In this document: in pieces, positions 37,905 to 50,573 of the stretch
Layout of the letters: every line of letters begins with the position of its first letter
Numbering within the stretch: position 1 is the stretch's first letter
From: Shinella sp. WSJ-2
Lineage (GTDB): Bacteria > Pseudomonadota > Alphaproteobacteria > Rhizobiales > Rhizobiaceae
Assembly: GCF_003432075.1 (NCBI RefSeq)
Contig: NZ_QWBU01000008.1
Span: 124,001 to 188,000, forward strand
Direction: 5' to 3'
Length of the DNA: 64,000 nt
The notes under the pieces: generated by a model
The model's database searches: none
Seen by the model: the letters and a program-made list of their open reading frames with translations, nothing else
What the model was told of the DNA's origin: nothing
Program-made: the position numbers and the translations under genes

Positions 37905-38726
37905 TTAGGCGGCTTTGCGGCTGGTGAGGTAGGCGCGCGGCGAAGTGCCGAGCATGCGCTTGAACATGGTGGTGAAAGCGGGAACACTCTCGTAGCCGGC
38001 GTCGAGCGCCACGCGCGTCACCGGCTCGCCGGCGGCAAGCCTTGGCAGGCAGGCGAAAAGACAGGCCTGCTGTCGCCAAGTGACGAAGCTGACGCCCGTC
38101 TCCTCGCGGAAAAACCGCGTAAAGGTGCGCCGGCTCATGTGGAGATGCCGCGCCCAGTCATCGATCTTGGCGACAGGCGACGGCGCCTCGACGAAATCGC
38201 GGCAGAGGCCGGCGAGCCGCCCGCTTGCGGGAAAGGGCAGGCCGAGGCGGCGCTCCGGCAAGCGGCCAATCTCGTCGAGCAGCAGCGCCATCACCAATTC
38301 CCCGCGTCCGCGATCCTCCGCAAGCGCGCCCTTGCGCACGGCCTCCGCAAGAAGCTGGCGCGCCAGATCCGTCACCTCGAGCACGGTGGGCTCTTCGGAG
38401 GCCGCACGGCCCTCCGGCGAATAGATATAGACCGAGCGCATGCTGACATCGCTCGCCATCTCGACGGAATGCTCCAGCCCGCGCGGGATGAGCAGCGCGT
38501 GGCCGGGCGGGATCATCCAGCGCCCGCGGTCCGTCGAAACCAGCACGACACCGGAGAAGACGCAGAGAAACTGCGTGCGCCGATGGCGATGCGGCGGCAC
38601 GGTGTACCCACCCGGAATATCCGAACTGTGGACCAGAACGTCCTCGTTCGACTGCTCCATGCGAGAAAGATTGCGGATGTGGTCGTCATCGAGCGCTTTC
38701 AGGCGCGCCGGCGTCAATTTTTCCAT
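37905..38726 (-). CDS. AraC family regulator with N-terminal cupin
   Basis: Regulator of 273 residues. The N-terminal cupin part contains GGYTVPPHRHRRTQFLCVFSG and WMIPPGHALLIPRGLEHSVEM, typical of AraC members that lack a separate large sensor. The C-terminal double helix-turn-helix reads IDDWARHLHMSRRTFTRFFREETGVSF then VTRVALDAGYESVPAFTTMFKRMLGTSPRAYL. ATG 38726 (MEKLTPARLKAL) is preferred; the frame is open to 38762. It is divergent from the MFS exporter gene, 110 bp away, which is its likely target. It also lies upstream of cobF on the same strand, but with a 128-bp gap. Confidence 0.84.
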   Translation of the reverse strand: MEKLTPARLKALDDDHIRNLSRMEQSNEDVLVHSSDIPGGYTVPPHRHRRTQFLCVFSGVVLVSTDRGRWMIPPGHALLIPRGLEHSVEMASDVSMRSVYIYSPEGRAASEEPTVLEVTDLARQLLAEAVRKGALAEDRGRGELVMALLLDEIGRLPERRLGLPFPASGRLAGLCRDFVEAPSPVAKIDDWARHLHMSRRTFTRFFREETGVSFVTWRQQACLFACLPRLAAGEPVTRVALDAGYESVPAFTTMFKRMLGTSPRAYLTSRKAA

Positions 38727-38836
38727 ATTTGGCCCACTCGCGTAAGAAATGGACCTCAGCACAAAAGCAGGCCGCGCGCAATCCTTGTATGGAACGGCAA
38801 ATCGCGCCGCCTGCGGCGAACAGTTCGAGGCTCCCC

Positions 38837-40036
38837 ATGTCGACAGTCGTCCCGGCCGCGCCCTCCCGCGCCGCCGCCACCACCTATTCCATCATCGTCG
38901 CGGTCAGCGCCTGCCACATGCTTAACGACATCATGCAGTCGCTGCTGACGTCGCTCTACCCGCTGCTCAAGGAAAACTACGCGCTCGATTTCGTGCAGAT
39001 CGGCTTGCTCACCATGGCCTTCCAGGTCACGGCCTCGCTTTTGCAGCCGGCCGTCGGCATCGTCACGGACCGCTGGCCGATGCCCTTCTCCCTGCCGGTC
39101 GGCATGGGCAGCACCTTCGTCGGCCTCATCATGCTTGCCTACGCGCATTCCTTCCCGGTCCTGATCCTCGGCGCCTGCCTGATCGGCCTGGGGTCGGCGA
39201 TCTTCCACCCGGAATCCTCGCGCGTCGCGCGCCTTGCCTCGGGCGGCCGCCATGGCCTTGCGCAGTCGATGTTCCAGGTCGGTGGCAATGCCGGCACGGC
39301 GCTCGGCCCGCTGCTCGCCGCCTTCATCGTGCTGCCCTTCGGCCAGACGAGCGTCGCCTGGTTCTCGGCCATCGCCCTTGTCGGCATGATCATTCTGACC
39401 TGGGTCGGCAACTGGTATGCCGGCGAGCGCCGCTCGTCGGCGGGCCGGCCCGCCGTCAGCCGCGAACTGCCGCTGCCGCGTGGAAAAGTCGCCTGGGCGC
39501 TGGCGGTGCTCGTACTGCTGACCACGACCAAGAACGCCTACCTCGCCAGCATTTCGAGCTATTTCACCTTCTACACGATCGGCCGCTTCGGGCTCGACGT
39601 GCAGCAGGCGCAGCTGATGCTGTTTCTCTTCCTCGGCTCCTCCGCGCTCGGTGTCTTCATGGGCGGGCCGATCGGCGACCGGTTCGGCACGCGCTTCGTG
39701 ATCTGGTTCTCGATCCTCGGCGTTATTCCCTTCGCGCTGATGCTGCCCTATGCCAATCTATTCTGGACGGGCGTGCTGACGGTGATGATCGGCCTGATCT
39801 TCTCCTCGGCCTTCTCCAACATCGTCGTCTTCGCGCAGGAACTGGTGCCGGGCCGCGTCGGCATGATCGCCGGCATCTTCTTCGGCTTCGCCTTCGGCGC
39901 CGGCGGCCTGGGTGCTGCCCTGCTCGGCGGCGTCGCCGACCGTCACGGCATCGACTTCGTCTTCCAGGTCTGCTCCTACATGCCGCTGCTGGGCATCCTG
40001 ACGATCTTCCTGCCGCGCCTGCCGGCCAAGCACTGA
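38837..40036 (+). CDS. MFS efflux transporter, fosmidomycin-resistance (Fsr) family
   Basis: Inner-membrane exporter of 399 residues with twelve predicted helices. Fsr-type motifs are CHMLNDIMQSLLTSLYPLLKENYALDF at the first helix and loop, GLGSAIFHPESSRVARLASGGRHGLAQSMFQVGGNAGTALGP (the conserved FHPE...QVGGN region) and GGPIGDRFGTRFVI. ATG 38837 has GAGG six bases upstream; a second ATG at 38789 is possible. Divergent to the AraC gene and ended by a strong terminator, so it is a single-gene unit. The name reflects family membership; the real substrate is unknown. Confidence 0.84.
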   Translation: MSTVVPAAPSRAAATTYSIIVAVSACHMLNDIMQSLLTSLYPLLKENYALDFVQIGLLTMAFQVTASLLQPAVGIVTDRWPMPFSLPVGMGSTFVGLIMLAYAHSFPVLILGACLIGLGSAIFHPESSRVARLASGGRHGLAQSMFQVGGNAGTALGPLLAAFIVLPFGQTSVAWFSAIALVGMIILTWVGNWYAGERRSSAGRPAVSRELPLPRGKVAWALAVLVLLTTTKNAYLASISSYFTFYTIGRFGLDVQQAQLMLFLFLGSSALGVFMGGPIGDRFGTRFVIWFSILGVIPFALMLPYANLFWTGVLTVMIGLIFSSAFSNIVVFAQELVPGRVGMIAGIFFGFAFGAGGLGAALLGGVADRHGIDFVFQVCSYMPLLGILTIFLPRLPAKH

Positions 40037-40106: not shown

Positions 40107-41390
40107 TTAAAGCCGGGCGCCTGCGAAATGGGCGATCTGGGCGCCGAGTTCGTAATAGCCCTCGCGCGCCGAGCGGAAGGACTGGGCTTCAGGGTCGGTG
40201 ACCGGCAGCGGCAGATCCTTTTCGGCGATCTCGCCGGAGATGAGTTCGGCCAGCGTGCGGCCGAAGACCGTGCCGGGCGCGATGCCCCGGCCGTTGTAAC
40301 CGGAGAAGCCAATGACGTTTTCGGCCAGGCGATGGAAGCGCGGCAGGTTGTCGGTGGTCATGCCGATCTTGCCGTACCACTCCGCCTCGAAGGCGACGTC
40401 GCCGATGGCGGGGAAAAGCTTCTTCAGCGCGCGGCGTGCCCAGGCCTTGTGGATGCCGGTGCCCGTGCCGCGCAGCGCACCGACGCTGCCGAACACGAGG
40501 CGGCCCCGCTTGTCGAAGCGGAAGGAGGAGAGCACCTCCTTGGTATCCCAGGCGCCCTGCTTTTCGGGAAGGATTTTGGCCTGAAGCTCCGGCGAGAGCG
40601 GCACGGTGGCGAAATTGAAATAGGGCAGGTGCACGAGTTCGGCGCGCACCTCGTTCCACGGTGCCACCGTATAGGCATTGGTGGCGACCACCACCCAGTC
40701 GGCCGTCACCGAACCGCGGGCGGTGTTGACCGTCCAGCGTTTGCCATTGCGTTCCGCACCCGTCACCGGGCTTCCCGTAAAGACCTGGGCACCGGCGGCA
40801 ATCGCCGCGCGGGCCAGGCCGCGCGCATAGGCGAGCGGCTGGATCGTGCCGGCGCGCATGTCGAGCAGCGAACCCGTATAGGCATCCGTGCCGACCTTGA
40901 CCGCAGTTTCCGCCGCATCGAGCAGCCGCACCGGCGCGCCACGGCGCGCCCATTGCTCGGCGCGCTGCTTCAATTCGTCGAGGCCGGACTGGCCGACGGC
41001 GCAATGCAGCGTGCCGACCGGGTTGATCTCGCAATCGATGGCATGCTTTGCGACGAGATCGAACACGGCGCGCGGCGCATTGCCGAGCAGTTCGAGCAGG
41101 CGGCTGCCGTGCAGGTCGCCCAGAACGCCCGGAAGCTCGTCGGGCATCACCCACATGCCGGCATTGACGAGGCCGACATTGCGGCCCGAACCGCCATAGC
41201 CGATCTCCGCGCCTTCCAGCAGGATGACGCGCGTGCCGCGCTCGGCCAGATGCAGCGCGGTCGAAAACCCGGTGTATCCGCCGCCGACGATGACGACATC
41301 CGCCTCGGCCTTACCCGAGAAGGCAACCGTTTCGGGGGCGGGCGGGGCGGTCATCTCCCAAAGGCCATGGGAGCGCGGGTCGTTGAGCAT
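40107..41390 (-). CDS. FAD-dependent amine/imino-acid oxidoreductase (DadA family), candidate L-pipecolate oxidase
   Basis: Flavoprotein of 427 residues. The dinucleotide-binding motif DVVIVGGGYTGFSTALHLAERG lies at about residues 31-52, followed by GYGGSGRNVGLVNAG; the C-terminal FAD contact is NVIGFSGYNGRGIAPGTVFGR. This is the DadA/glycine-oxidase-like group that includes AmaA of Pseudomonas putida, an L-pipecolate oxidase of about the same length found with amaB. Here it is downstream of a LysR gene and next to an amaB-like gene, so a role in turning pipecolate into piperideine-6-carboxylate is plausible. Other amine substrates, such as gamma-glutamyl putrescine, fit the fold equally well. 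ATG 41390 is preferred over an upstream frame extension. Confidence 0.75.
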   Translation of the reverse strand: MLNDPRSHGLWEMTAPPAPETVAFSGKAEADVVIVGGGYTGFSTALHLAERGTRVILLEGAEIGYGGSGRNVGLVNAGMWVMPDELPGVLGDLHGSRLLELLGNAPRAVFDLVAKHAIDCEINPVGTLHCAVGQSGLDELKQRAEQWARRGAPVRLLDAAETAVKVGTDAYTGSLLDMRAGTIQPLAYARGLARAAIAAGAQVFTGSPVTGAERNGKRWTVNTARGSVTADWVVVATNAYTVAPWNEVRAELVHLPYFNFATVPLSPELQAKILPEKQGAWDTKEVLSSFRFDKRGRLVFGSVGALRGTGTGIHKAWARRALKKLFPAIGDVAFEAEWYGKIGMTTDNLPRFHRLAENVIGFSGYNGRGIAPGTVFGRTLAELISGEIAEKDLPLPVTDPEAQSFRSAREGYYELGAQIAHFAGARL

Positions 41391-41510
41391 AGTGGTCTGT
41401 CTTTTCGGAAAAGGAGGATGTTCGCCGCACAATCGGCCATGCGGCACGCCGACTAAAGCAAAAAATCAGAACGGGGTCATGCCCCGTCCGCATGATCGGT
41501 CGCTGGAATT

Positions 41511-42407
41511 CTAAGCCGGGAGCTCTTTGGCAATCCAGGCGCGAAACGCCTGGCTGAGCGGGTTTTCCAGCTTGCCCTCGGGCACGACGAGATAATAGTT
41601 GTTCTCCGTCTCCATCGGCCGGTCGAAGACCAGCGCGAGGCGGCCGCTCGCAAGCTCCTGCTCGATGAGATATTTCGGCAGGAGCGCAAAGCCGAGGCCG
41701 GCGACGGCGGATTCGATCACCATGGCGAACTGATCGAAGCGGTGGCCGCGATAGGCCGTCTCCGAGGCGGCACCGTTCAGCTCGAACCATTGCGCCCAGA
41801 GCTTTGGACGCGTCGCGAGATGGAGCAGCGGCGCCGTTTCAAGATCTTTCGGATCGGTCAGATCCCAGGATTTCAGGAGTTCCGGGCTTGCCGCCGGCAG
41901 GATGATCTCGCTGCAGAGATAGGAGCAGGCCGCGCGCGCCCAGACCGGCTGGCCGTAGTGGATCGCGAGGTCGAAATTCTCCTCGTCGAAATCGAACGGG
42001 GCCGAACGCGACGCGATGTTGATGATCGTGCCGGGGTTTTCGGCGAGAAAACCCGGAATGCGCGGCGTCAGCCAGCGGCTGCCGAAGGTTGGCAGCGTCG
42101 CGATGGCGAGGCTGTGTTCGGAGGACGCCGACGCCATGGCGCGCAGCATGGTCTCTTCGGTCTGGTGCAGGAGCTTGCGCACCTCCGGCAGGAAGCGCCG
42201 GCCGTCGTCGGAGAGCACCACGCGCTGACGCACGCGCTCGAACAGCAATACGCCGAGCTGTTCCTCAAGGTCCTTGATCTGGCGGCTGACGGCGCTTTGC
42301 GTGAGGTTCAGCTCATGCGCGGCCTGCGTGAAGGAGCCGTGGCGCGCGGCACATTCGAACGCTTGCAGCGTGGTGACGTCCGGGATCAGCCTTCGACTGA
42401 GCTTCAT
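41511..42407 (-). CDS. LysR family regulator, GcvA-like
   Basis: Regulator of 298 residues with the N-terminal winged helix motif LQAFECAARHGSFTQAAHELNLTQSAVSRQIKDLEEQLG and a sensor half (SLAIATLPTFGSRWLTPRIPGFL; FDLAIHYGQP). It reads away from hglS with 117 bp between them, and the flavin oxidase gene follows it after 120 bp on the same strand. It is therefore well placed to control both the hglS operon and the oxidase, probably in response to a lysine-pathway intermediate. Confidence 0.83.
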   Translation of the reverse strand: MKLSRRLIPDVTTLQAFECAARHGSFTQAAHELNLTQSAVSRQIKDLEEQLGVLLFERVRQRVVLSDDGRRFLPEVRKLLHQTEETMLRAMASASSEHSLAIATLPTFGSRWLTPRIPGFLAENPGTIINIASRSAPFDFDEENFDLAIHYGQPVWARAACSYLCSEIILPAASPELLKSWDLTDPKDLETAPLLHLATRPKLWAQWFELNGAASETAYRGHRFDQFAMVIESAVAGLGFALLPKYLIEQELASGRLALVFDRPMETENNYYLVVPEGKLENPLSQAFRAWIAKELPA

Positions 42408-42453
42408 TCTTTCCTCGCATCAACATAGTCAGAACGGTCGCAATCGCTTGGAG

Positions 42454-42477
42454 AAACGATCCAGTATGATCCGTTTT
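42454..42477. promoter_or_regulatory. Dyad in the divergent LysR/hglS promoter region
   Basis: AAACGATC and GATCCGTTTT flank a 6-base centre, giving GATC-N6-GATC with nearly symmetric A/T-rich ends. It lies 47 bp before the LysR start and 48 bp before the hglS start. A LysR binding site is inferred from position. Confidence 0.45.
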
Positions 42478-42524
42478 GAGAATGAACAGGGCCCTCCCAC
42501 CCTTGTAAGATGAGACCGCCTCCC

Positions 42525-43922
42525 ATGAAAGCAAATTCGTACGTTTCCGCCGACAAGATCCGCTCGGATTTCTCCGCCGCCATGTCCGCCATGTATCGCG
42601 ACGAGGTCCCGGCCTATGGCACGCTGATGGCGCTGGTCGCCAAGGTCAATGACGAGACGCTCGCCGCCGACCCACGTCTGAAGACGCGCCTCGAAGCGAC
42701 CGATTCGCTCGACCGCATCTCGGAAGAGCGCCACGGCGCCATCCGCCTCGGGACGCCCGGAGAGCTTTCCATGATGCGCCGCGCCTTCGCCGTCATGGGC
42801 ATGTTCCCGGTCGGCTACTACGATCTCTCCACGGCCGGCGTTCCGGTTCACTCCACCGCCTTCCGCCCGGTCGGCGCCGAAAGCCTCAGCCGCAACCCCT
42901 TCCGCGTCTTCACCTCGCTGCTGCGTCTCGACCTGATCGCCGACGAAACGCTGCGTGAAGAGGCCGCCGCCGTTCTGGCCGCGCGCAAGATTTTCACCGA
43001 CGAAGCCGTTCGGCTGGTCGAGAAGGCCGAGCGTGACGGTGGCCTCGAGCCCGCCGACGCCGCCCGCTTCGTGACCGAAGTGCTGGAAACCTTCCGCTGG
43101 CACGACCACGCCATCGTCAGCACGGACATGTACAAGCGCCTGCACGACGCGCATCGCCTGATCGCCGACGTCGTTTCCTTCAAGGGCCCGCACATCAACC
43201 ACCTGACGCCGCGCACGCTCGATATCGACAAGGTGCAGGCCCGCATGCCGGAAGAAGGCATCGCGCCCAAGGCCATTGTCGAGGGCCCGCCGACCCGCGA
43301 CTGCCCGATCCTGCTGCGCCAGACCTCGTTCAAGGCGCTGGAAGAGGCCGTGTCCTTCATAGGCAGCGACGGCAGCTGGCAGAAGGGCTCACACACCGCC
43401 CGTTTCGGCGAGATCGAACAGCGCGGCGTGGCGCTGACCCCGAAGGGCCGCGCGCTCTACGACAAGCTCCTGAACGACACCCGCGCCCGCGTGCGCCCGG
43501 CCGCCGACGGCTCCAACGCCGCCGAATACGAGGCGGCACTCGCCGATGTCTTCAAGGCCTTCCCGGACACGTGGGACGGTATTCGCCAGGCGGGCCTTGG
43601 CTATTTCCGCTACTCGCTGACGGAAAAGGGCCAGTCCGTTACCGGCCGCAACGCCGATCTGGAAACCGCGATCGAAGCCGGCCTCATCCAGTTCGACCCG
43701 ATCGTCTATGAAGACTTCCTGCCGGTCAGCGCCGCGGGCATCTTCCAGTCGAACCTCGGCGACGATGCGACGCAGGATTTCGTCGCAAGCCCCAACCAGG
43801 TGATGTTCGAGCGCGATCTGGGCGCCACGGTTCTGGACGAATTCGCCCATTATGCCGGCATCCAGCGCGCCTCGCTTGAAATGTGCCTTGGCATCGTCAA
43901 CATGGCCGCCGCTGCAGAGTGA
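42525..43922 (+). CDS. hglS: 2-oxoadipate dioxygenase/decarboxylase (DUF1338, HglS)
   Basis: Fe(II) enzyme that converts 2-oxoadipate with O2 to D-2-hydroxyglutarate and CO2 in lysine catabolism. In the 465-residue product numbered from ATG 42525, His70 and Arg74 (ERHGAIR), His226 (GPHINH) and Glu296 (FGEIEQRG) fall at or next to the positions reported for the P. putida HglS metal and substrate site (H70, R74, H226, E294), and the V-S pair at 401-402 matches as well. This supports the start chosen over ATG 42510. It heads an operon with a D-2-hydroxyglutarate dehydrogenase, an ALDH7 enzyme and an aminotransferase: the next and the preceding steps of the same pathway. Confidence 0.9.
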   Translation: MKANSYVSADKIRSDFSAAMSAMYRDEVPAYGTLMALVAKVNDETLAADPRLKTRLEATDSLDRISEERHGAIRLGTPGELSMMRRAFAVMGMFPVGYYDLSTAGVPVHSTAFRPVGAESLSRNPFRVFTSLLRLDLIADETLREEAAAVLAARKIFTDEAVRLVEKAERDGGLEPADAARFVTEVLETFRWHDHAIVSTDMYKRLHDAHRLIADVVSFKGPHINHLTPRTLDIDKVQARMPEEGIAPKAIVEGPPTRDCPILLRQTSFKALEEAVSFIGSDGSWQKGSHTARFGEIEQRGVALTPKGRALYDKLLNDTRARVRPAADGSNAAEYEAALADVFKAFPDTWDGIRQAGLGYFRYSLTEKGQSVTGRNADLETAIEAGLIQFDPIVYEDFLPVSAAGIFQSNLGDDATQDFVASPNQVMFERDLGATVLDEFAHYAGIQRASLEMCLGIVNMAAAAE

Positions 43923-43933
43923 CGGACGAAAGC

Positions 43934-45352
43934 ATGATCGAGGCAAACCATATCGCGGTCTTGAAAAGCCTGCTCGGCGAGAAAGGTCTTCTCACCGAGC
44001 CCGCCGATATGGCCGCCTATGAGACCGGCGCGCGCTACGACAAAGGCCGGGCCGCCTTCGTCGCGCGCCCGGCAACGACCGCCGAGACCTCCGCCGTCAT
44101 GGCCTATTGCGTGAAGAACGGCATCGCACTCATTCCGCAGTCCGGCAATACCGGCCTCGTCTCCGGCTCGACGCCCGACGACAGCGGCCGCCAAGGCGTT
44201 CTGAGCCTCGACCGCCTCACCGCACCGTTCGAGTTCGATCGCGTCAACCGCACGATCAAGGCCGGCGCGGGCGTGCGACTTTCCGACCTCAACGGCAAGC
44301 TCGAAGACACCGGCCTGTTCTTCCCGATCGACCTCGGCGCCGACCCGCGCCTCGGTGGCATGATCGCGACGAACACCGGCGGCTCGCGCTTCCTGCGCTA
44401 CGGCGACGTGCGCCGCAACACGCTGGGCCTCACGGTCGTCCTCGCCGACGAGGCCGGAACCGTGCTCGACCTCTCTTCGGATCTGCGCAAGAACAATACC
44501 GGCGTCGACTGGAAGCAGCTGTTTATCGGCACGTCGGGCGCTTTCGGTATCGTCACCGAATGCGTGCTGAACCTCGAGCCCGCGCCGAAACAATCGGCGA
44601 CCGCGCTTCTCGTACCCTCCTCGGCCGAACAGGTCGCCACGCTGCTGGTTGCCATGGAAGACGCGCTCGGCAGCTATCTCTCGGCCTTCGAGGGCATGTC
44701 CGGCAATGCCATCAGTGCCGCGCTCGACCACGTTCCCTCGCTGCGCAATCCCTTCCAGGGCGGCATCGTGCCCGATTTCGTCATCCTTGCCGAAATCTCC
44801 CGCTCAACGCCGCCGCGCGAGGGCGAACAGCCGCTCGATGCGGTGCTGGAGGAGGTGCTGGCCGCGATCTGGGAGCGTGAGGACGCGCCGCTCGCCGACG
44901 CCTTCGTCGGTCCGCCGCACGAAATCTGGGCGCTGCGCCACGCGCTGTCCGAGGGCGTGAAGCATAGCGGACGATTGATCGCCTTCGATCTGTCCTTCCG
45001 CCGGGGTGACATCATGCCTTTCCTCGCCCATATGAAGGCGGACATGCCTGACCACTTCGAGGACGTGACGATCTGCGATTTCGGCCATATCGGCGATGGC
45101 GGCGTGCACTTCAACCTCGTCGTCGCCAAGGACGATCCGCGCCTTGCCGATCCCGATTTCGAGGCGGACCTGCGCGCCTGGGTCTTCACCGTCGCCGTCG
45201 AAAACTTCGGCGGCAGCTTCAGCGCGGAGCACGCCATCGGCCGCAAGAACCAGGCCTTCTACGACCAATACACCCCGGAAAAGATCCGCGACCTCGCGGC
45301 CGGGCTGAAAACCATCACCTCGCCGGGTCCGCTCGGCGCCATGACCTTCTAA
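43934..45352 (+). CDS. D-2-hydroxyglutarate dehydrogenase, FAD-linked (VAO family)
   Basis: Oxidises D-2-hydroxyglutarate to 2-oxoglutarate, passing electrons to a quinone or flavoprotein acceptor. The 472-residue product has the PCMH-type FAD domain with ALIPQSGNTGLVSGSTPDD and MIATNTGGSRFLRYGDVRRN, and the C-terminal FAD-oxidase domain with the metal-binding GHIGDGGVHFNLVV and FSAEHAIGRKN. Either ATG 43934 or a GTG at 43919 that overlaps the hglS stop (GTGA) could start it; both imply coupling with hglS. D-lactate dehydrogenase is a relative, but the neighbour that makes D-2-hydroxyglutarate decides the assignment. Confidence 0.88.
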   Translation: MIEANHIAVLKSLLGEKGLLTEPADMAAYETGARYDKGRAAFVARPATTAETSAVMAYCVKNGIALIPQSGNTGLVSGSTPDDSGRQGVLSLDRLTAPFEFDRVNRTIKAGAGVRLSDLNGKLEDTGLFFPIDLGADPRLGGMIATNTGGSRFLRYGDVRRNTLGLTVVLADEAGTVLDLSSDLRKNNTGVDWKQLFIGTSGAFGIVTECVLNLEPAPKQSATALLVPSSAEQVATLLVAMEDALGSYLSAFEGMSGNAISAALDHVPSLRNPFQGGIVPDFVILAEISRSTPPREGEQPLDAVLEEVLAAIWEREDAPLADAFVGPPHEIWALRHALSEGVKHSGRLIAFDLSFRRGDIMPFLAHMKADMPDHFEDVTICDFGHIGDGGVHFNLVVAKDDPRLADPDFEADLRAWVFTVAVENFGGSFSAEHAIGRKNQAFYDQYTPEKIRDLAAGLKTITSPGPLGAMTF

Positions 45353-45372
45353 GAAACTCAGGGAGATACCCC

Positions 45373-46896
45373 ATGACGAAAGTCGACGTGAAAAAGGAAA
45401 CCGAAGCCCTTCTCGACAAGCTCGGCGTTGCCCGTGGCCTGTGGCAGGGTGGCGACATGGCCTCGTTCAGCCCGGTCAGCGGCGAAGAGATCGGCAAGCT
45501 GAAGACCGTTTCGGGCGCCGAGACAGACAAGGCCATCGACGCCGCCCATGAGGCCTTCAAGGCCTGGCGCCTCGTGCCGGCCCCCAAGCGCGGCGAACTC
45601 GTGCGCCTGCTCGGCGAAGAGCTGCGCGCCGCCAAGGCAGATCTCGGTCGCCTCGTCTCCATCGAAGCCGGCAAGATCACCTCCGAAGGCCTCGGCGAAG
45701 TGCAGGAAATGATCGACATCTGCGATTTCGCCGTCGGTCTCTCCCGCCAGCTCTACGGCCTCACCATCGCCACCGAGCGCCCCGGCCACCGCATGATGGA
45801 AACCTGGCACCCGCTCGGCGTCGTCGGCATCATCTCCGCCTTCAACTTCCCGGTCGCCGTCTGGTCGTGGAACGCGGCGCTCGCGCTCGTCGCCGGCAAT
45901 TCCATCGTCTGGAAGCCCTCTGAAAAGACCCCGCTGACCGGCCTCGCCTGCCAGGCGATCCTCGATCGCGCGCTGGCCCGCTTCGGCGATGCGCCGGCGA
46001 ACCTTTCCCAGGTCCTCATCGGCGACCGCACCATCGGCGAAGCCCTCGTCGACAACCACAAGGTCGCGCTCGTCTCGGCCACCGGCTCCACCCGCATGGG
46101 CAAGGAAGTCGGCCCGCGCCTCGCCAAGCGTTTCGCCCGCTCGATCCTCGAGCTCGGCGGCAACAATGCCGGCATCGTCTGCCCGTCCGCCGATCTCGAC
46201 ATGGCCCTGCGCGCGATTGCCTTTGGTGCCATGGGGACCGCCGGCCAGCGCTGCACGACGCTCCGCCGCCTCTTCGTGCATGACAGCGTCTACGACCAGC
46301 TCGTGCCGCGCCTGAAGAAGGCCTATACCAGCGTTTCCGTCGGTAACCCGCTGGAGACCTCGGCCCTCGTCGGCCCGCTCGTCGACAAGCAGGCCTTCGA
46401 CGGCATGCAGAAGGCGCTGGAAGCCGCCAAGGCCGAGGGCGGTTCCGTCACCGGCGGCGAGCGCGTTGCCGACGCCGGCAAGGACACGGCCTACTACGTC
46501 AAGCCGGCCATCGTCGAAATGCCGAAGCAGGCCGGCCCGGTTCTCGAAGAGACCTTCGCGCCGATCCTCTACGTCATGAAGTATTCCGACTTCGACGCCG
46601 TTCTCGAAGACCACAACGCCGTTTCGGCCGGTCTCTCCTCGTCGATCTTCACGCTCAACGTTCAGGAAGCCGAGCGCTTCCTCTCGGCCGACGGTTCGGA
46701 CTGCGGCATCGCCAATGTCAACATCGGCACTTCGGGTGCTGAAATCGGCGGCGCGTTCGGCGGCGAGAAGGAAACCGGCGGCGGCCGCGAATCCGGCTCC
46801 GACGCCTGGAAGGCCTATATGCGCCGCGCCACAAACACGGTGAACTACTCGAAGGCCCTGCCGCTCGCCCAGGGCGTCTCCTTCGATATCGAGTAA
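45373..46896 (+). CDS. amaB: L-2-aminoadipate-6-semialdehyde dehydrogenase (ALDH7, AmaB)
   Basis: NAD(P)-dependent oxidation of 2-aminoadipate semialdehyde (in equilibrium with piperideine-6-carboxylate) to 2-aminoadipate. The 507 residues match the antiquitin/ALDH7 type: MMETWHPLGVVGIISAFNFPVAVWSWNAALA with Asn158, Lys181 in WKPSEK, the catalytic Glu260 in LELGGNN and Cys294 in GQRCTTLRR, and the C-terminal GGAFGGEKETGGGRESGSDAWK. AGGGAGA precedes ATG 45373. It is third in the hglS operon, 20 bp after the previous gene and 6 bp before the aminotransferase. Confidence 0.92.
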   Translation: MTKVDVKKETEALLDKLGVARGLWQGGDMASFSPVSGEEIGKLKTVSGAETDKAIDAAHEAFKAWRLVPAPKRGELVRLLGEELRAAKADLGRLVSIEAGKITSEGLGEVQEMIDICDFAVGLSRQLYGLTIATERPGHRMMETWHPLGVVGIISAFNFPVAVWSWNAALALVAGNSIVWKPSEKTPLTGLACQAILDRALARFGDAPANLSQVLIGDRTIGEALVDNHKVALVSATGSTRMGKEVGPRLAKRFARSILELGGNNAGIVCPSADLDMALRAIAFGAMGTAGQRCTTLRRLFVHDSVYDQLVPRLKKAYTSVSVGNPLETSALVGPLVDKQAFDGMQKALEAAKAEGGSVTGGERVADAGKDTAYYVKPAIVEMPKQAGPVLEETFAPILYVMKYSDFDAVLEDHNAVSAGLSSSIFTLNVQEAERFLSADGSDCGIANVNIGTSGAEIGGAFGGEKETGGGRESGSDAWKAYMRRATNTVNYSKALPLAQGVSFDIE

Positions 46897-48135
<1,239 letters not shown>

Positions 48136-48166
48136 GTCAGCAAAAAGACAATCCGGCAAAAATCAT

Positions 48167-48768
48167 AACCTCCACCGGAGGTGGAGGTTTGAAACGCTGC
48201 GCTTGGACCGCTAGAAGCGGTTTTGCTATAAGTTAGTAGCTACGGTTAAAGAGGTCGGCAGAGTCGGAAGCTTTGTCGACCTTTTCCTGATTACGGATAT
48301 ATCGTCTGACGACCTGCTCATCATAGCCAGACGTCGACACGAAGTACCCTCGCGCCCCAAAATGGTATCCCTTGTAGCGCCGCTTGCGCGCATATTTATT
48401 GGCAACGTAAAGAGCCGTCTTACCCTTTAAAAAGCCAACAATGTGCGACACAGAATACTTCGGCGGTATCGATATCAGCATATGCACATGGTCGGGCATC
48501 AAGTGCCCTTCCTCGATCCGGCAATCCTTCTGCAAAGCAAGTCTATGCAACAGATCACCAAGCTCACGGCGCAAATCCCCGTAGAGCCTTTTCGTTCGGT
48601 ATTTACTCGCGAAGACCACATGATATTTGCAGTCCCACGTCGCGTGCGATTGCGAGCGTTCGTCCATAAAACCTCCGTTCTATGTCTCGGAAAACCTAAC
48701 GGTCCAAGCACGGAGGTCTCTCAATCACGATGTAAAACCCGTCCAGTCCTCCACCGCAGGTGGAGGTT
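48167..48768 (-). mobile_element. IS200-type insertion sequence
   Basis: About 0.6 kb with one transposase gene and a subterminal hairpin at each side, the usual layout for IS200/IS605 elements, which have no inverted terminal repeats and make no target duplication. The hairpins are near copies: AACCTCCACC/GGTGGAGGTT at 48167-48189 and CCTCCACC/GGTGGAGG at 48748-48766. An inner hairpin ACCGCT/AGCGGT (48207-48221) is followed by TTTT and could stop incoming plus-strand transcripts. Because tnpA is on the minus strand, the right side is the element's left end. Exact ends are not fixed here. No tnpB is present. Confidence 0.85.
48233..48667 (-). CDS. tnpA: IS200 family Y1 transposase TnpA
   Basis: Single-strand transposase of 144 residues that cuts and joins DNA through a tyrosine. 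The HUH motif is H60-V61-H62 in PDHVHMLISIPP and the catalytic Tyr is Y123 in RRYIRNQE. The N-terminal WDCKYHVVFASKYRTKRLYG and the GARGYFVSTSG stretch are also typical. GGAGG precedes ATG 48667. The frame is intact and the length is near the usual 140-155 residues, so the element may still be active. Gene composition is less GC-rich than the flanking genes, as expected for a mobile element. Confidence 0.93.
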   Translation of the reverse strand: MDERSQSHATWDCKYHVVFASKYRTKRLYGDLRRELGDLLHRLALQKDCRIEEGHLMPDHVHMLISIPPKYSVSHIVGFLKGKTALYVANKYARKRRYKGYHFGARGYFVSTSGYDEQVVRRYIRNQEKVDKASDSADLFNRSY

Positions 48769-48787
48769 TATTTACTTCATAATAAAA

Positions 48788-48812
48788 GGGGCCTCGAAAG
48801 AGGCCCCATTTT
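48788..48812. terminator. Terminator between the lysine-pathway gene blocks
   Basis: Perfect 8-bp stem GGGGCCTC/GAGGCCCC with a GAAA loop, followed by ATTTTT on the plus strand and TTTTATT on the minus strand. It is now separated from the aminotransferase gene by the IS element, which suggests insertion between the gene and its terminator. Confidence 0.85.
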
Positions 48813-48873
48813 TATGTGTCCGCGCCTTGTGGCGTTCTCTGCTTCCCCGCGGCTTTGGGCCACAGATGCGAAA

Positions 48874-48902
48874 GATGCCCCGGCCTTTTCGGCCGGGGCA
48901 TC
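48874..48902 (-). terminator. Terminator of the lysine dehydrogenase gene
   Basis: Perfect 12-bp stem GATGCCCCGGCC/GGCCGGGGCATC with a 5-base loop, 17 bp after the stop codon. On the minus strand it is followed by only TTTC, so it is a weak U-tract. Confidence 0.65.
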
Positions 48903-48919
48903 GAAGGTCTTCAAAGAGA

Positions 48920-50020
48920 TCAGGCGGCGTGGGCGCCGCGGTTTTCCTGGGCGTAGTAGTGACCAAAGCGGTTGGCGAGGAAGGCGTCGAGGGCGATTTC
49001 TTCCTGGCGGATGAAGCCTCTAGCGCGCAGCGAGCCATCGGCCAGCATGTCGAGCACGGCGCAGATCGAGCCGGCCGTCGTGATCTGGATGGCGGAGTGC
49101 AGGGCGCCGGCGACCGGGGCGCTATAGACCTTGTTGGCGTAGGTTTCCTGGATCAGGCGGCCACCCTTGCGGCCCGAAACGGTCACGAAGATGATCACGA
49201 CGTCCTGCGTGGTGGTCGGCAGGGCGTTTTCGAAGATGTCCTTGAGGACTTCGCGGCGATGACGGAGACCCAGGTCGTTCAGCAGCGCCTTCATGATGGC
49301 TGCGTGGCCGGGATAGCGGATCGTGCGGTAGTTCAGCGTCCGAACCTTGCCCTTCAGCGTCTCGCAGAGGGTGCCGAGGCCGCCCGAGGTGTTGAAGGCT
49401 TCGTAGGTAACGCCATCGAGCGAGAATTCTTCACGCTCTTCCAGCGCCGGAACCTCGATCAGCGCGCCTTCGACGATGGCTTCGCAGGGCTCGATATATT
49501 CGTTGATGACGCCGTCCGTGCTCCAGGTCAGGTTATAGTTCAGGGCGTTGGACGGGTACTGCGGCAGGGCGCCGACGCGCATGCGCACGCTGTCGAGCGT
49601 GTCGAAGCGGCTGGCAAGGTCGTTGGCGACGATGGAGATGAAGCCCGGTGCCAGGCCGCACTGCGGAATGAAGGCCGTCTTGGCGTTTTCGGCGATGCGC
49701 TTGACCTGGCGGGTGGATTCGACGTCTTCCGTGAGGTCGAGATAGTGCACGCCGGCAGCGGCGGCCGCTTCGGCGATCGCGACCGTCAGGTGGTAAGGGG
49801 CGGCCGAGAGAACGGCGAACTTGCCGGTCAGAAGGGCCTTCATGGCGGCAGCATCGGCGATATCGACGACGGCCGTGGTGACCGCGGCATGCTTCTCGAT
49901 GGCAGCGAGCTGCTCTTCGGCGCGGTCCGCAACGGTGACGCGGTAATCCCCGCTGTGAGCCAGCATGCGTGCAATGGTCGAGCCGATCTTGCCTGCGCCG
50001 ATGACGACGATGTCCTTCAT
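48920..50020 (-). CDS. L-lysine 6-dehydrogenase (saccharopine dehydrogenase-like fold)
   Basis: NAD-dependent oxidative deamination of L-lysine at the epsilon carbon to 2-aminoadipate semialdehyde. The 366-residue protein begins MKDIVVIGAGKIGSTIARMLAHSGDY (Rossmann GxGxxG) and continues with DLTEDVESTRQVKRIAENAKTAFIPQCGLAPGFISIVANDLA, the reductase-type dimer domain. Length is very close to the characterised Agrobacterium lysine 6-dehydrogenase. ATG 50020 has GGAGGG seven bases upstream. It lies next to its predicted downstream enzymes and is divergent from an Lrp regulator. Saccharopine reductase is the alternative, but no lysine-ketoglutarate reductase is present. Confidence 0.87.
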   Translation of the reverse strand: MKDIVVIGAGKIGSTIARMLAHSGDYRVTVADRAEEQLAAIEKHAAVTTAVVDIADAAAMKALLTGKFAVLSAAPYHLTVAIAEAAAAAGVHYLDLTEDVESTRQVKRIAENAKTAFIPQCGLAPGFISIVANDLASRFDTLDSVRMRVGALPQYPSNALNYNLTWSTDGVINEYIEPCEAIVEGALIEVPALEEREEFSLDGVTYEAFNTSGGLGTLCETLKGKVRTLNYRTIRYPGHAAIMKALLNDLGLRHRREVLKDIFENALPTTTQDVVIIFVTVSGRKGGRLIQETYANKVYSAPVAGALHSAIQITTAGSICAVLDMLADGSLRARGFIRQEEIALDAFLANRFGHYYAQENRGAHAA

Positions 50021-50083
50021 GTGATTTCCCTCCGGCATGAATTGATGCGCTTAATTTGAGAGGGATGGCTGTCGATTTAAAGC

Positions 50084-50095
50084 GCCATATCTGGC
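50084..50095. promoter_or_regulatory. Dyad between lysine dehydrogenase and Lrp genes
   Basis: GCCATATCTGGC, with perfect GCCA/TGGC ends, followed by AT-rich symmetric runs (ATAATCAATTAT, ATCGATAT) up to 50117. It occupies the 112-bp divergent promoter region and is a likely Lrp-type site. Confidence 0.45.
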
Positions 50096-50132
50096 ATAAT
50101 CAATTATCGATATCGGCAGAACGACGGTAAAA

Positions 50133-50573
50133 ATGAGCATTTCGACGCTAGGCGCCAAGGATCGTGAGCTCCTCGCCATCCTCAGCGAGAACGCCCGCGA
50201 GCAGACCGCGACGATCGCCCGCAAGCTGGGCCTATCGCGCACGACCGTGCAGGCGAAGATCGACCGGCTGGAACGGGCTGGCGTGATCGCCGGCTACGGC
50301 GTCAAGCTTTCGGATGCCTATGAGAGCGGCATGGTGAAGGCCCATGTCCTTATCACCATCGCGCCGAAGACGCTGGCGCGCATCACCACGGAACTGCACG
50401 CCATCTCCGCCGTGCGCACCCTGCATTCGGTGAGCGGCAGCTTCGACCTGATCGCCGTGGTCGAAGCGGCCTCGATCGCCGAACTCGACGACCTGATCGA
50501 CAAGATCGGCGCCATCGACGGCGTGGAACGCACGCTGTCATCGATCATCCTGTCGACGCGGATAAGGCGGTAG
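50133..50573 (+). CDS. Lrp/AsnC family regulator of the lysine dehydrogenase gene
   Basis: Small regulator of 146 residues: an N-terminal helix-turn-helix (LSENAREQTATIARKLGLSRTTVQAKIDRLERAGVIAGYGV) and a C-terminal RAM ligand domain (AHVLITIAPKTLARITTEL; VRTLHSVSGSFDLIAVVEA). Divergent orientation from the lysine 6-dehydrogenase gene, 112 bp apart, suggests that it senses lysine and controls that gene, as Lrp-type regulators do for other amino-acid dehydrogenases. It is followed by a terminator and is a single-gene unit. Confidence 0.86.
   Translation: MSISTLGAKDRELLAILSENAREQTATIARKLGLSRTTVQAKIDRLERAGVIAGYGVKLSDAYESGMVKAHVLITIAPKTLARITTELHAISAVRTLHSVSGSFDLIAVVEAASIAELDDLIDKIGAIDGVERTLSSIILSTRIRR

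Follow-up and report, generated by a model that had tools for sequence, protein, structure and literature searches.

A predicted lysine and pipecolate block in Shinella

We analysed a 64,000-nucleotide stretch of the 5.14 Mb genome of Shinella sp. WSJ-2 (contig NZ_QWBU01000008.1, positions 124,001 to 188,000; hereafter the window) by means of its list of open reading frames and family scans, and find nine open genes between positions 40107 and 50573 that we regard, with good confidence, as a catabolic funnel through which both L-lysine and L-pipecolate would be carried to 2-oxoglutarate. An earlier note on this DNA had named five enzyme genes here, for lysine 6-dehydrogenase (LysDH), ALDH7, an aminotransferase, HglS and a D-2-hydroxyglutarate dehydrogenase (D2HGDH), and had read them as an intact chain from lysine to 2-oxoglutarate. 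All five are single uninterrupted frames inside this interval and their families agree with the names given, and both the chain and the combination of LysDH with HglS hold as predictions from sequence. The gene at 40107-41447, left unnamed at the left edge of the interval, encodes a homologue of AmaA, L-pipecolate oxidase, and provides the second predicted entry. The nine genes are as follows.

40107-41447, minus strand: AmaA-like flavin adenine dinucleotide (FAD) oxidase of the DAO type, predicted L-pipecolate oxidase (PF01266, 2e-64; best model NF050086, 468 bits)
41511-42407, minus strand: LysR-family regulator, divergent from the HglS gene run (PF00126/PF03466)
42510-43922, plus strand: HglS, predicted 2-oxoadipate dioxygenase/decarboxylase, DUF1338 (NF049974, 753 bits; PDB 6w1g, 563 bits)
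43934-45352, plus strand: FAD dehydrogenase of the D2HGDH/GlcD type, from a lineage lacking a key lysine (PF01565 and PF02913; 6lpn, 192 bits)
45373-46896, plus strand: ALDH7/AmaB, predicted delta1-piperideine-6-carboxylate (P6C, allysine) dehydrogenase yielding 2-aminoadipate (NF050084, 823 bits)
46903-48135, plus strand: AatB-type class I aminotransferase, predicted to convert 2-aminoadipate to 2-oxoadipate (6f35, 740 bits)
48233-48667, minus strand: IS200 transposase gene (TnpA), between the convergent AatB and LysDH genes (NF033573, 130 bits)
48920-50038, minus strand: predicted LysDH with a saccharopine-dehydrogenase fold (PF03435/PF16653; 3abi)
50133-50573, plus strand: Lrp/AsnC regulator, divergent from LysDH (PF01037 and PF13404)

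Families and spacing can be read directly from the DNA. The AmaA-like and LysR genes share the minus strand, and the HglS, FAD dehydrogenase, ALDH7 and AatB genes form a plus-strand run with gaps of 11, 20 and 6 bp, the FAD gene being counted from the ATG at 43934; to the right of AatB lie the IS200 transposase and LysDH genes, both on the minus strand, and then Lrp on the plus strand. The position of LysR is the same in Sinorhizobium meliloti and on the Ri plasmid pRiA4b as in the window.

The predicted route and its core enzymes

In the proposed scheme, whose chemical steps we assign from family membership and gene context, LysDH would deaminate L-lysine oxidatively at the epsilon carbon to give P6C/allysine, and the AmaA-like oxidase would form the same compound from L-pipecolate, so that the two entries would meet there. 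ALDH7 (AmaB) would then oxidise P6C/allysine to 2-aminoadipate, the AatB-type aminotransferase would convert this to 2-oxoadipate, and HglS would yield D-2-hydroxyglutarate, which would be oxidised to 2-oxoglutarate by the neighbouring FAD dehydrogenase or by YdiJ or a canonical D2HGDH encoded elsewhere in the genome. The plus-strand run may be transcribed as an operon; LysR probably controls this core run, and Lrp probably controls the LysDH gene.

HglS scores 753 bits on NF049974, above the equivalog cut-off of 550, and its motifs RHGAIR, HINHLTPR, FGEIEQRG and PVSAAGIF align with the Pseudomonas putida enzyme (6w1g); RHGAIR holds the equivalents of His70 and Arg74 in a numbering checked against that structure, and the remaining two residues of what we take to be the HHE metal triad were placed by alignment. 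Published fitness data from Pseudomonas fluorescens and S. meliloti, as an excerpt of PMC7286885 presents them, support conservation of HglS function. ALDH7 exceeds the equivalog cut-off of 730 for L-piperidine-6-carboxylate dehydrogenase (NF050084) and scores about 500 bits against solved structures of alpha-aminoadipic semialdehyde dehydrogenase. The aminotransferase matches, at 740 bits, a 6f35 chain named aspartate aminotransferase B, which we take to be S. meliloti AatB, and an AatB homologue occurs within ALDH7/HglS gene sets in LysDH-linked loci, in S. meliloti, on pRiA4b and in Roseovarius (48% identical).

Two predicted entries

LysDH carries the domain pair PF03435 and PF16653 (Sacchrp_dh_NADP and C domain). 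A profile search returns Pyrococcus 3abi, titled L-lysine dehydrogenase, as its best full-length solved relative, at 22-24% identity, with saccharopine and carboxyspermidine dehydrogenases scoring below it; the N-terminal fragment 3ic5 scores higher than 3abi, but over 114 residues. Foldseek likewise ranks 3abi first for the AlphaFold model. These sequence and fold matches support the family of the putative LysDH, not its substrate. The protein is 98% identical in Shinella curvata and Shinella zoogloeoides. We also considered and rejected the possibility that it forms half of a lysine-ketoglutarate reductase/saccharopine dehydrogenase pair, as no reductase domain is present in the nine proteins of the block, to which this search was confined.

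The earlier note had LysDH replacing the entry through pipecolate. Its prediction of LysDH stands, but because an AmaA-like oxidase lies in the same block, LysDH would be an additional entry and not a substitute. Linkage to HglS supports a predicted L-pipecolate oxidase role for the AmaA-like protein. According to an excerpt of PMC5653290, Phaeobacter inhibens cured of a plasmid that bears a candidate pipecolate oxidase accumulates L-pipecolate; a homologue on a P. inhibens plasmid, which comes from a different strain and may be that same gene, shares 47% identity with the window protein.

The genome also encodes three members of the Ldh_2 family, to which DpkA of the P. putida D-lysine entry belongs, on C9, C12 and C1. 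Those on C9 and C12 find their best NCBIfam match in sulfolactate dehydrogenase, both below cut-off. About 2 kb from the C12 gene, within L132 4410-8109, is a gene for a solute-binding protein whose best match, again below cut-off, is a lysine/arginine/ornithine transport model, and from this context a link of the C12 gene to D-lysine or pipecolate is possible. The C1 gene lies beside an amidohydrolase/adenine deaminase-type gene and an AraC-type gene.

The FAD dehydrogenase and the last step

The FAD dehydrogenase scores 192 bits against human D2HGDH (6lpn) and keeps the equivalents of R386, H434, H441, E475 and H476, which in D2HGDH serve to bind zinc and to engage the C1 carboxylate and hydroxyl. 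The equivalent of Lys401, the C5-carboxylate binder of D2HGDH, is Ala. An excerpt of PMC7801405 describes Lys401 of the human enzyme as forming a salt bridge to the C5 carboxylate, as strictly conserved among orthologues and as essential, its mutation abolishing activity. Since the lysine is missing, we describe the window protein as one that would work like D2HGDH, and do not class it with the human/bacterial type. In a tree with 25 rows of this lineage, Roseovarius among them, the position is Ala in 23 and Gly in 2, and the lineage forms a single clade apart from the lysine-bearing enzymes with support of 100/100. The window protein agrees with the lysine-bearing bacterial homologue 3pm9 at the remaining positions for the C5 carboxylate, which are Ser, Phe and Asn.

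We searched 121 genomes of the family, 37 with HglS and 84 without. The FAD dehydrogenase directly adjoins HglS in 16 of the 37, and all 16 matches of at least 62% identity lie directly beside HglS; the sole weaker match (G089, 49% identical and also a row of the tree) comes from a genome in which HglS was not found. A Variovorax member of the lineage likewise has an HglS homologue (56% identity) as its neighbour. Relatives within the lineage also occur in stretches that lack HglS, all of them lysine-less, on plasmids of Shinella sumterensis, Agrobacterium larrymoorei, Mesorhizobium, Sinorhizobium americanum and Ochrobactrum. These relatives carry Ala, Gly or Ser at the Lys401 position, and the change therefore belongs to the lineage; we rejected it as a mark of linkage to HglS. 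A search for substitutes of Lys401 found several arginines that are invariant or nearly so in the lineage, and no invariant polar position that separates HglS-linked from unlinked members. The AlphaFold model of the window protein was left unused, being poor (predicted local distance difference test score, pLDDT, 51).

Near the lineage members at four loci (L154, L157, L158 and L159) are genes for electron transfer flavoprotein (ETF) alpha and beta subunits or their like. Because of this proximity, we consider that ETF may be the electron acceptor of the lysine-less lineage.

An alternative that we consider rather unlikely, yet worth taking seriously, is that the FAD dehydrogenase acts on another D-2-hydroxyacid and that the last step falls to YdiJ (C24:499468; 1441 bits on NF049975, cut-off 1350) or to a canonical lysine-bearing D2HGDH (C22:127228), both encoded in this genome. 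The presence of Ala or Gly in place of Lys401 in every HglS-linked member examined, given what mutation of this residue does to the human enzyme, favours such a substrate, as do the presence of a YdiJ above its cut-off and the unrelated contexts in which the lineage is found. This proposal is opposed by the unbroken adjacency of close homologues to HglS in the family, and by the match to 3pm9 at the other C5-carboxylate positions. It is opposed further by Shinella pollutisoli, from which the FAD dehydrogenase is absent along with HglS but in which a canonical D2HGDH is kept: only relatives 33% identical to the FAD dehydrogenase are found in this assembly, one of them being the lysine-bearing D2HGDH. 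Finally, the pRiA4b block, where no FAD dehydrogenase was seen in the stretch examined, holds YdiJ instead. The window protein itself reaches 40 bits on the YdiJ model, short of the cut-off. From these comparisons, oxidation of D-2-hydroxyglutarate is the likely job of the HglS-linked enzyme, with appreciable doubt. The earlier naming of a D2HGDH gene is thus sound as to the PF01565/PF02913 family, and is qualified by the Ala and by the two other candidates in the genome.

Recurrence and the unity of the block

We compared the best 80 of at least 565 confirmed LysDH loci. Lrp stands beside LysDH in all 80, and the full block does so in 13. Four Rhizobium loci have AatB, ALDH7, HglS and LysR, with no match to the FAD dehydrogenase or AmaA in the flanks examined, and one S. 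pollutisoli locus (L019) keeps the block otherwise but is without HglS and the FAD dehydrogenase, in an assembly where no match to HglS was found anywhere. Chance clustering is excluded, because the same genes recur together in several genera: the LysDH-HglS combination is found in Shinella, Mycoplana, Rhizobium and a confirmed Ri plasmid. Co-occurrence in the family sample is pronounced, with LysDH at 60% identity or more in 25 of the 37 genomes with HglS and 11 of the 84 without (Fisher p 5e-9, kinship ignored). Among the plasmid records listed for both genes, LysDH and HglS are no more than 12 kb apart in 19 of 31, Rhizobium tropici CIAT 899 and pRiA4b included; for AmaA and HglS the corresponding figure is 10 of 16. 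The listings covered 60 of 82 LysDH, 60 of 77 HglS and 40 of 145 AmaA records.

The pRiA4b block (L152, NZ_CP128217.1, 188509-207597) shares LysR, HglS, ALDH7, AatB, LysDH and Lrp with the Shinella block; it differs in holding YdiJ (1466 bits, cut-off 1350), which sits between AatB and LysDH and does not adjoin HglS, and no GlcD-type dehydrogenase or AmaA was seen in the stretch examined. On pRiA4b the block directly adjoins RolB-family and iaaH genes. LysDH and HglS are 7394 bp apart there, and also on two other Rhizobium rhizogenes plasmids (245 and 252 kb).

It can be argued, though we find it improbable, that the core is a LysR-governed operon for pipecolate (and 2-aminoadipate) that happens to neighbour a separate LysDH-Lrp unit, lysine entering in some other way. 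Of the 37 family genomes with HglS, 19 have an AmaA homologue no further than 12 kb from it (16 with at least 59% identity and 3 with 43-45%, weaker matches being left out), against 7 that have LysDH at such a distance (one at 41% identity); 5 have both. Roseovarius sp. THAF9 has aminotransferase, ALDH7, AmaA, HglS and FAD dehydrogenase genes in one run, and LysDH was not seen in the stretch examined around it. In S. meliloti 4H41 the run keeps the window's order of LysR followed by HglS, FAD dehydrogenase, ALDH7 and AatB (72-86% identity), with no AmaA homologue in the 19 kb examined, and none of these genes is present at its LysDH-Lrp locus (L041). Strain Ak57 carries both loci on a single record with about 250 kb between them, LysDH-Lrp lying on pSymB. 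AatB and LysDH are convergent, with what looks by eye like a terminator hairpin between them. This division is hard to square with the sharing of genomes by LysDH and HglS far above expectation, or with the differing arrangements in which LysDH adjoins HglS in Shinella, Rhizobium and pRiA4b.

Several further points, beyond the Ala at the Lys401 position and the lineage members away from HglS, weigh against a dual-entry funnel and temper our confidence in it. The flanks examined, some of them short, lack HglS, ALDH7 or AatB orthologues in 62 of the 80 LysDH-Lrp loci. In the scan of the block's proteins no NCBIfam model names LysDH, whose AlphaFold model is of middling quality (pLDDT 69) and weak at about residues 160 to 280. 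The AmaA-like protein falls under the NF050086 cut-off of 600, and we therefore describe it as AmaA-like only, with a function deduced from linkage; a paralogue 67% identical to it is encoded in the same genome (C8:3620-4918). This second gene adjoins a divergent gene whose product is 29% identical to the window LysR.

That the saccharopine-dehydrogenase-fold protein has some other amino acid, or a conjugate resembling saccharopine, as its substrate, as the lack of an equivalog, the low identity to the Pyrococcus enzyme and the rank of carboxyspermidine and saccharopine dehydrogenases directly after 3abi in the fold list might suggest, is less probable still, since 3abi comes first in that list as well as among full-length matches by sequence, LysDH co-occurs with HglS and the block has no lysine-ketoglutarate reductase domain.

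The IS200 gap and flanking genes

AatB and LysDH are separated by 784 bp in the window; in S. curvata (L013) the gap is about 160 bp. In the window, positions 48137-48919 hold the IS200 transposase gene, flanked, as judged by eye, by CCTCCACC..GGTGGAGG inverted repeats; in S. curvata nothing but a short sequence lies there, with a hairpin that, again by eye, resembles a terminator. We dropped the idea that the insertion disrupts the pathway, as every frame is open and the element is placed where the 3' ends of two convergent genes face each other. In two Mycoplana loci and one of S. zoogloeoides (L023, 11119-12698; L024; L025) the gap is 1.2-1.6 kb and holds frames of about 230-320 codons.

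Beyond the AmaA end, window positions 37905-40036 contain an AraC-like regulator frame and a major facilitator superfamily (MFS)-like transporter frame, both named by eye. Of the 14 AmaA-holding loci of the LysDH set, 7 have a homologue of the MFS-like frame in the corresponding position.

Relation to known routes and implications

Neither the enzymes nor the two halves of the route are new. The P. putida route from D-lysine through pipecolate runs through AmaA, AmaB, an aminotransferase, HglS and YdiJ, and lysine 6-dehydrogenase (EC 1.4.1.18) is known from Agrobacterium, Geobacillus and Pyrococcus. With the former the Shinella block shares HglS and ALDH7, both above their NCBIfam cut-offs, and has an AmaA-like oxidase and LysR; it differs in adding LysDH-Lrp, in an aminotransferase of the AatB type and in a GlcD-type FAD enzyme in the place of YdiJ. 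With the Pyrococcus lysine dehydrogenase the window LysDH shares fold and domain pair, at low identity and with a substrate that is predicted. With human and bacterial D2HGDH (6lpn, 3pm9) the FAD dehydrogenase shares the zinc ligands and the equivalents of Arg386, Glu475 and His476, and differs in the Lys401 change and in its separate clade.

The earlier note had described the joining of an Agrobacterium-type entry to an HglS exit as a hybrid that seemed little described. The combination is present but is not unusual, as it recurs in several genera and on an Ri plasmid; the comparative search that was called for did recover the same gene order in relatives, as the full block beside LysDH and as the HglS run of S. 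meliloti. No description of LysDH together with HglS appeared among the matches listed from openly licensed PubMed Central articles, and a published one may still exist. A search by locus tag for the S. meliloti genes brought up a single paper, which deals with phage defence. The present comparison contributes three things: two predicted entries that share one block, an arrangement that recurs both chromosomally and on plasmids, and a FAD lineage without the lysine. In Agrobacterium tumefaciens C58, according to an excerpt of PMC7645780, lysine serves biotin synthesis via glutaryl-CoA, and the contrast with that route suggests two fates for 2-oxoadipate within this group of bacteria.

With its two predicted inputs that converge, the block offers a compact and testable non-Pseudomonas case of lysine breakdown by the 2-oxoadipate/HglS branch. 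It also draws attention to a lineage of flavoenzymes for which the activity assumed is at odds with a known rule of substrate binding. As a tentative proposal, the HglS-partner flavoprotein may be a separate D2HGDH lineage able to hold the C5 carboxylate although it lacks the lysine deemed essential in this family; together with LysDH and AmaA it may make up a funnel with two entries, through which bacteria associated with roots and tumours would use lysine and plant pipecolate. An excerpt of PMC7286885 states that pipecolate is able to trigger systemic acquired resistance in plants, so the occurrence of this block among root bacteria, and of its relative on the Ri plasmid, merits experiment.

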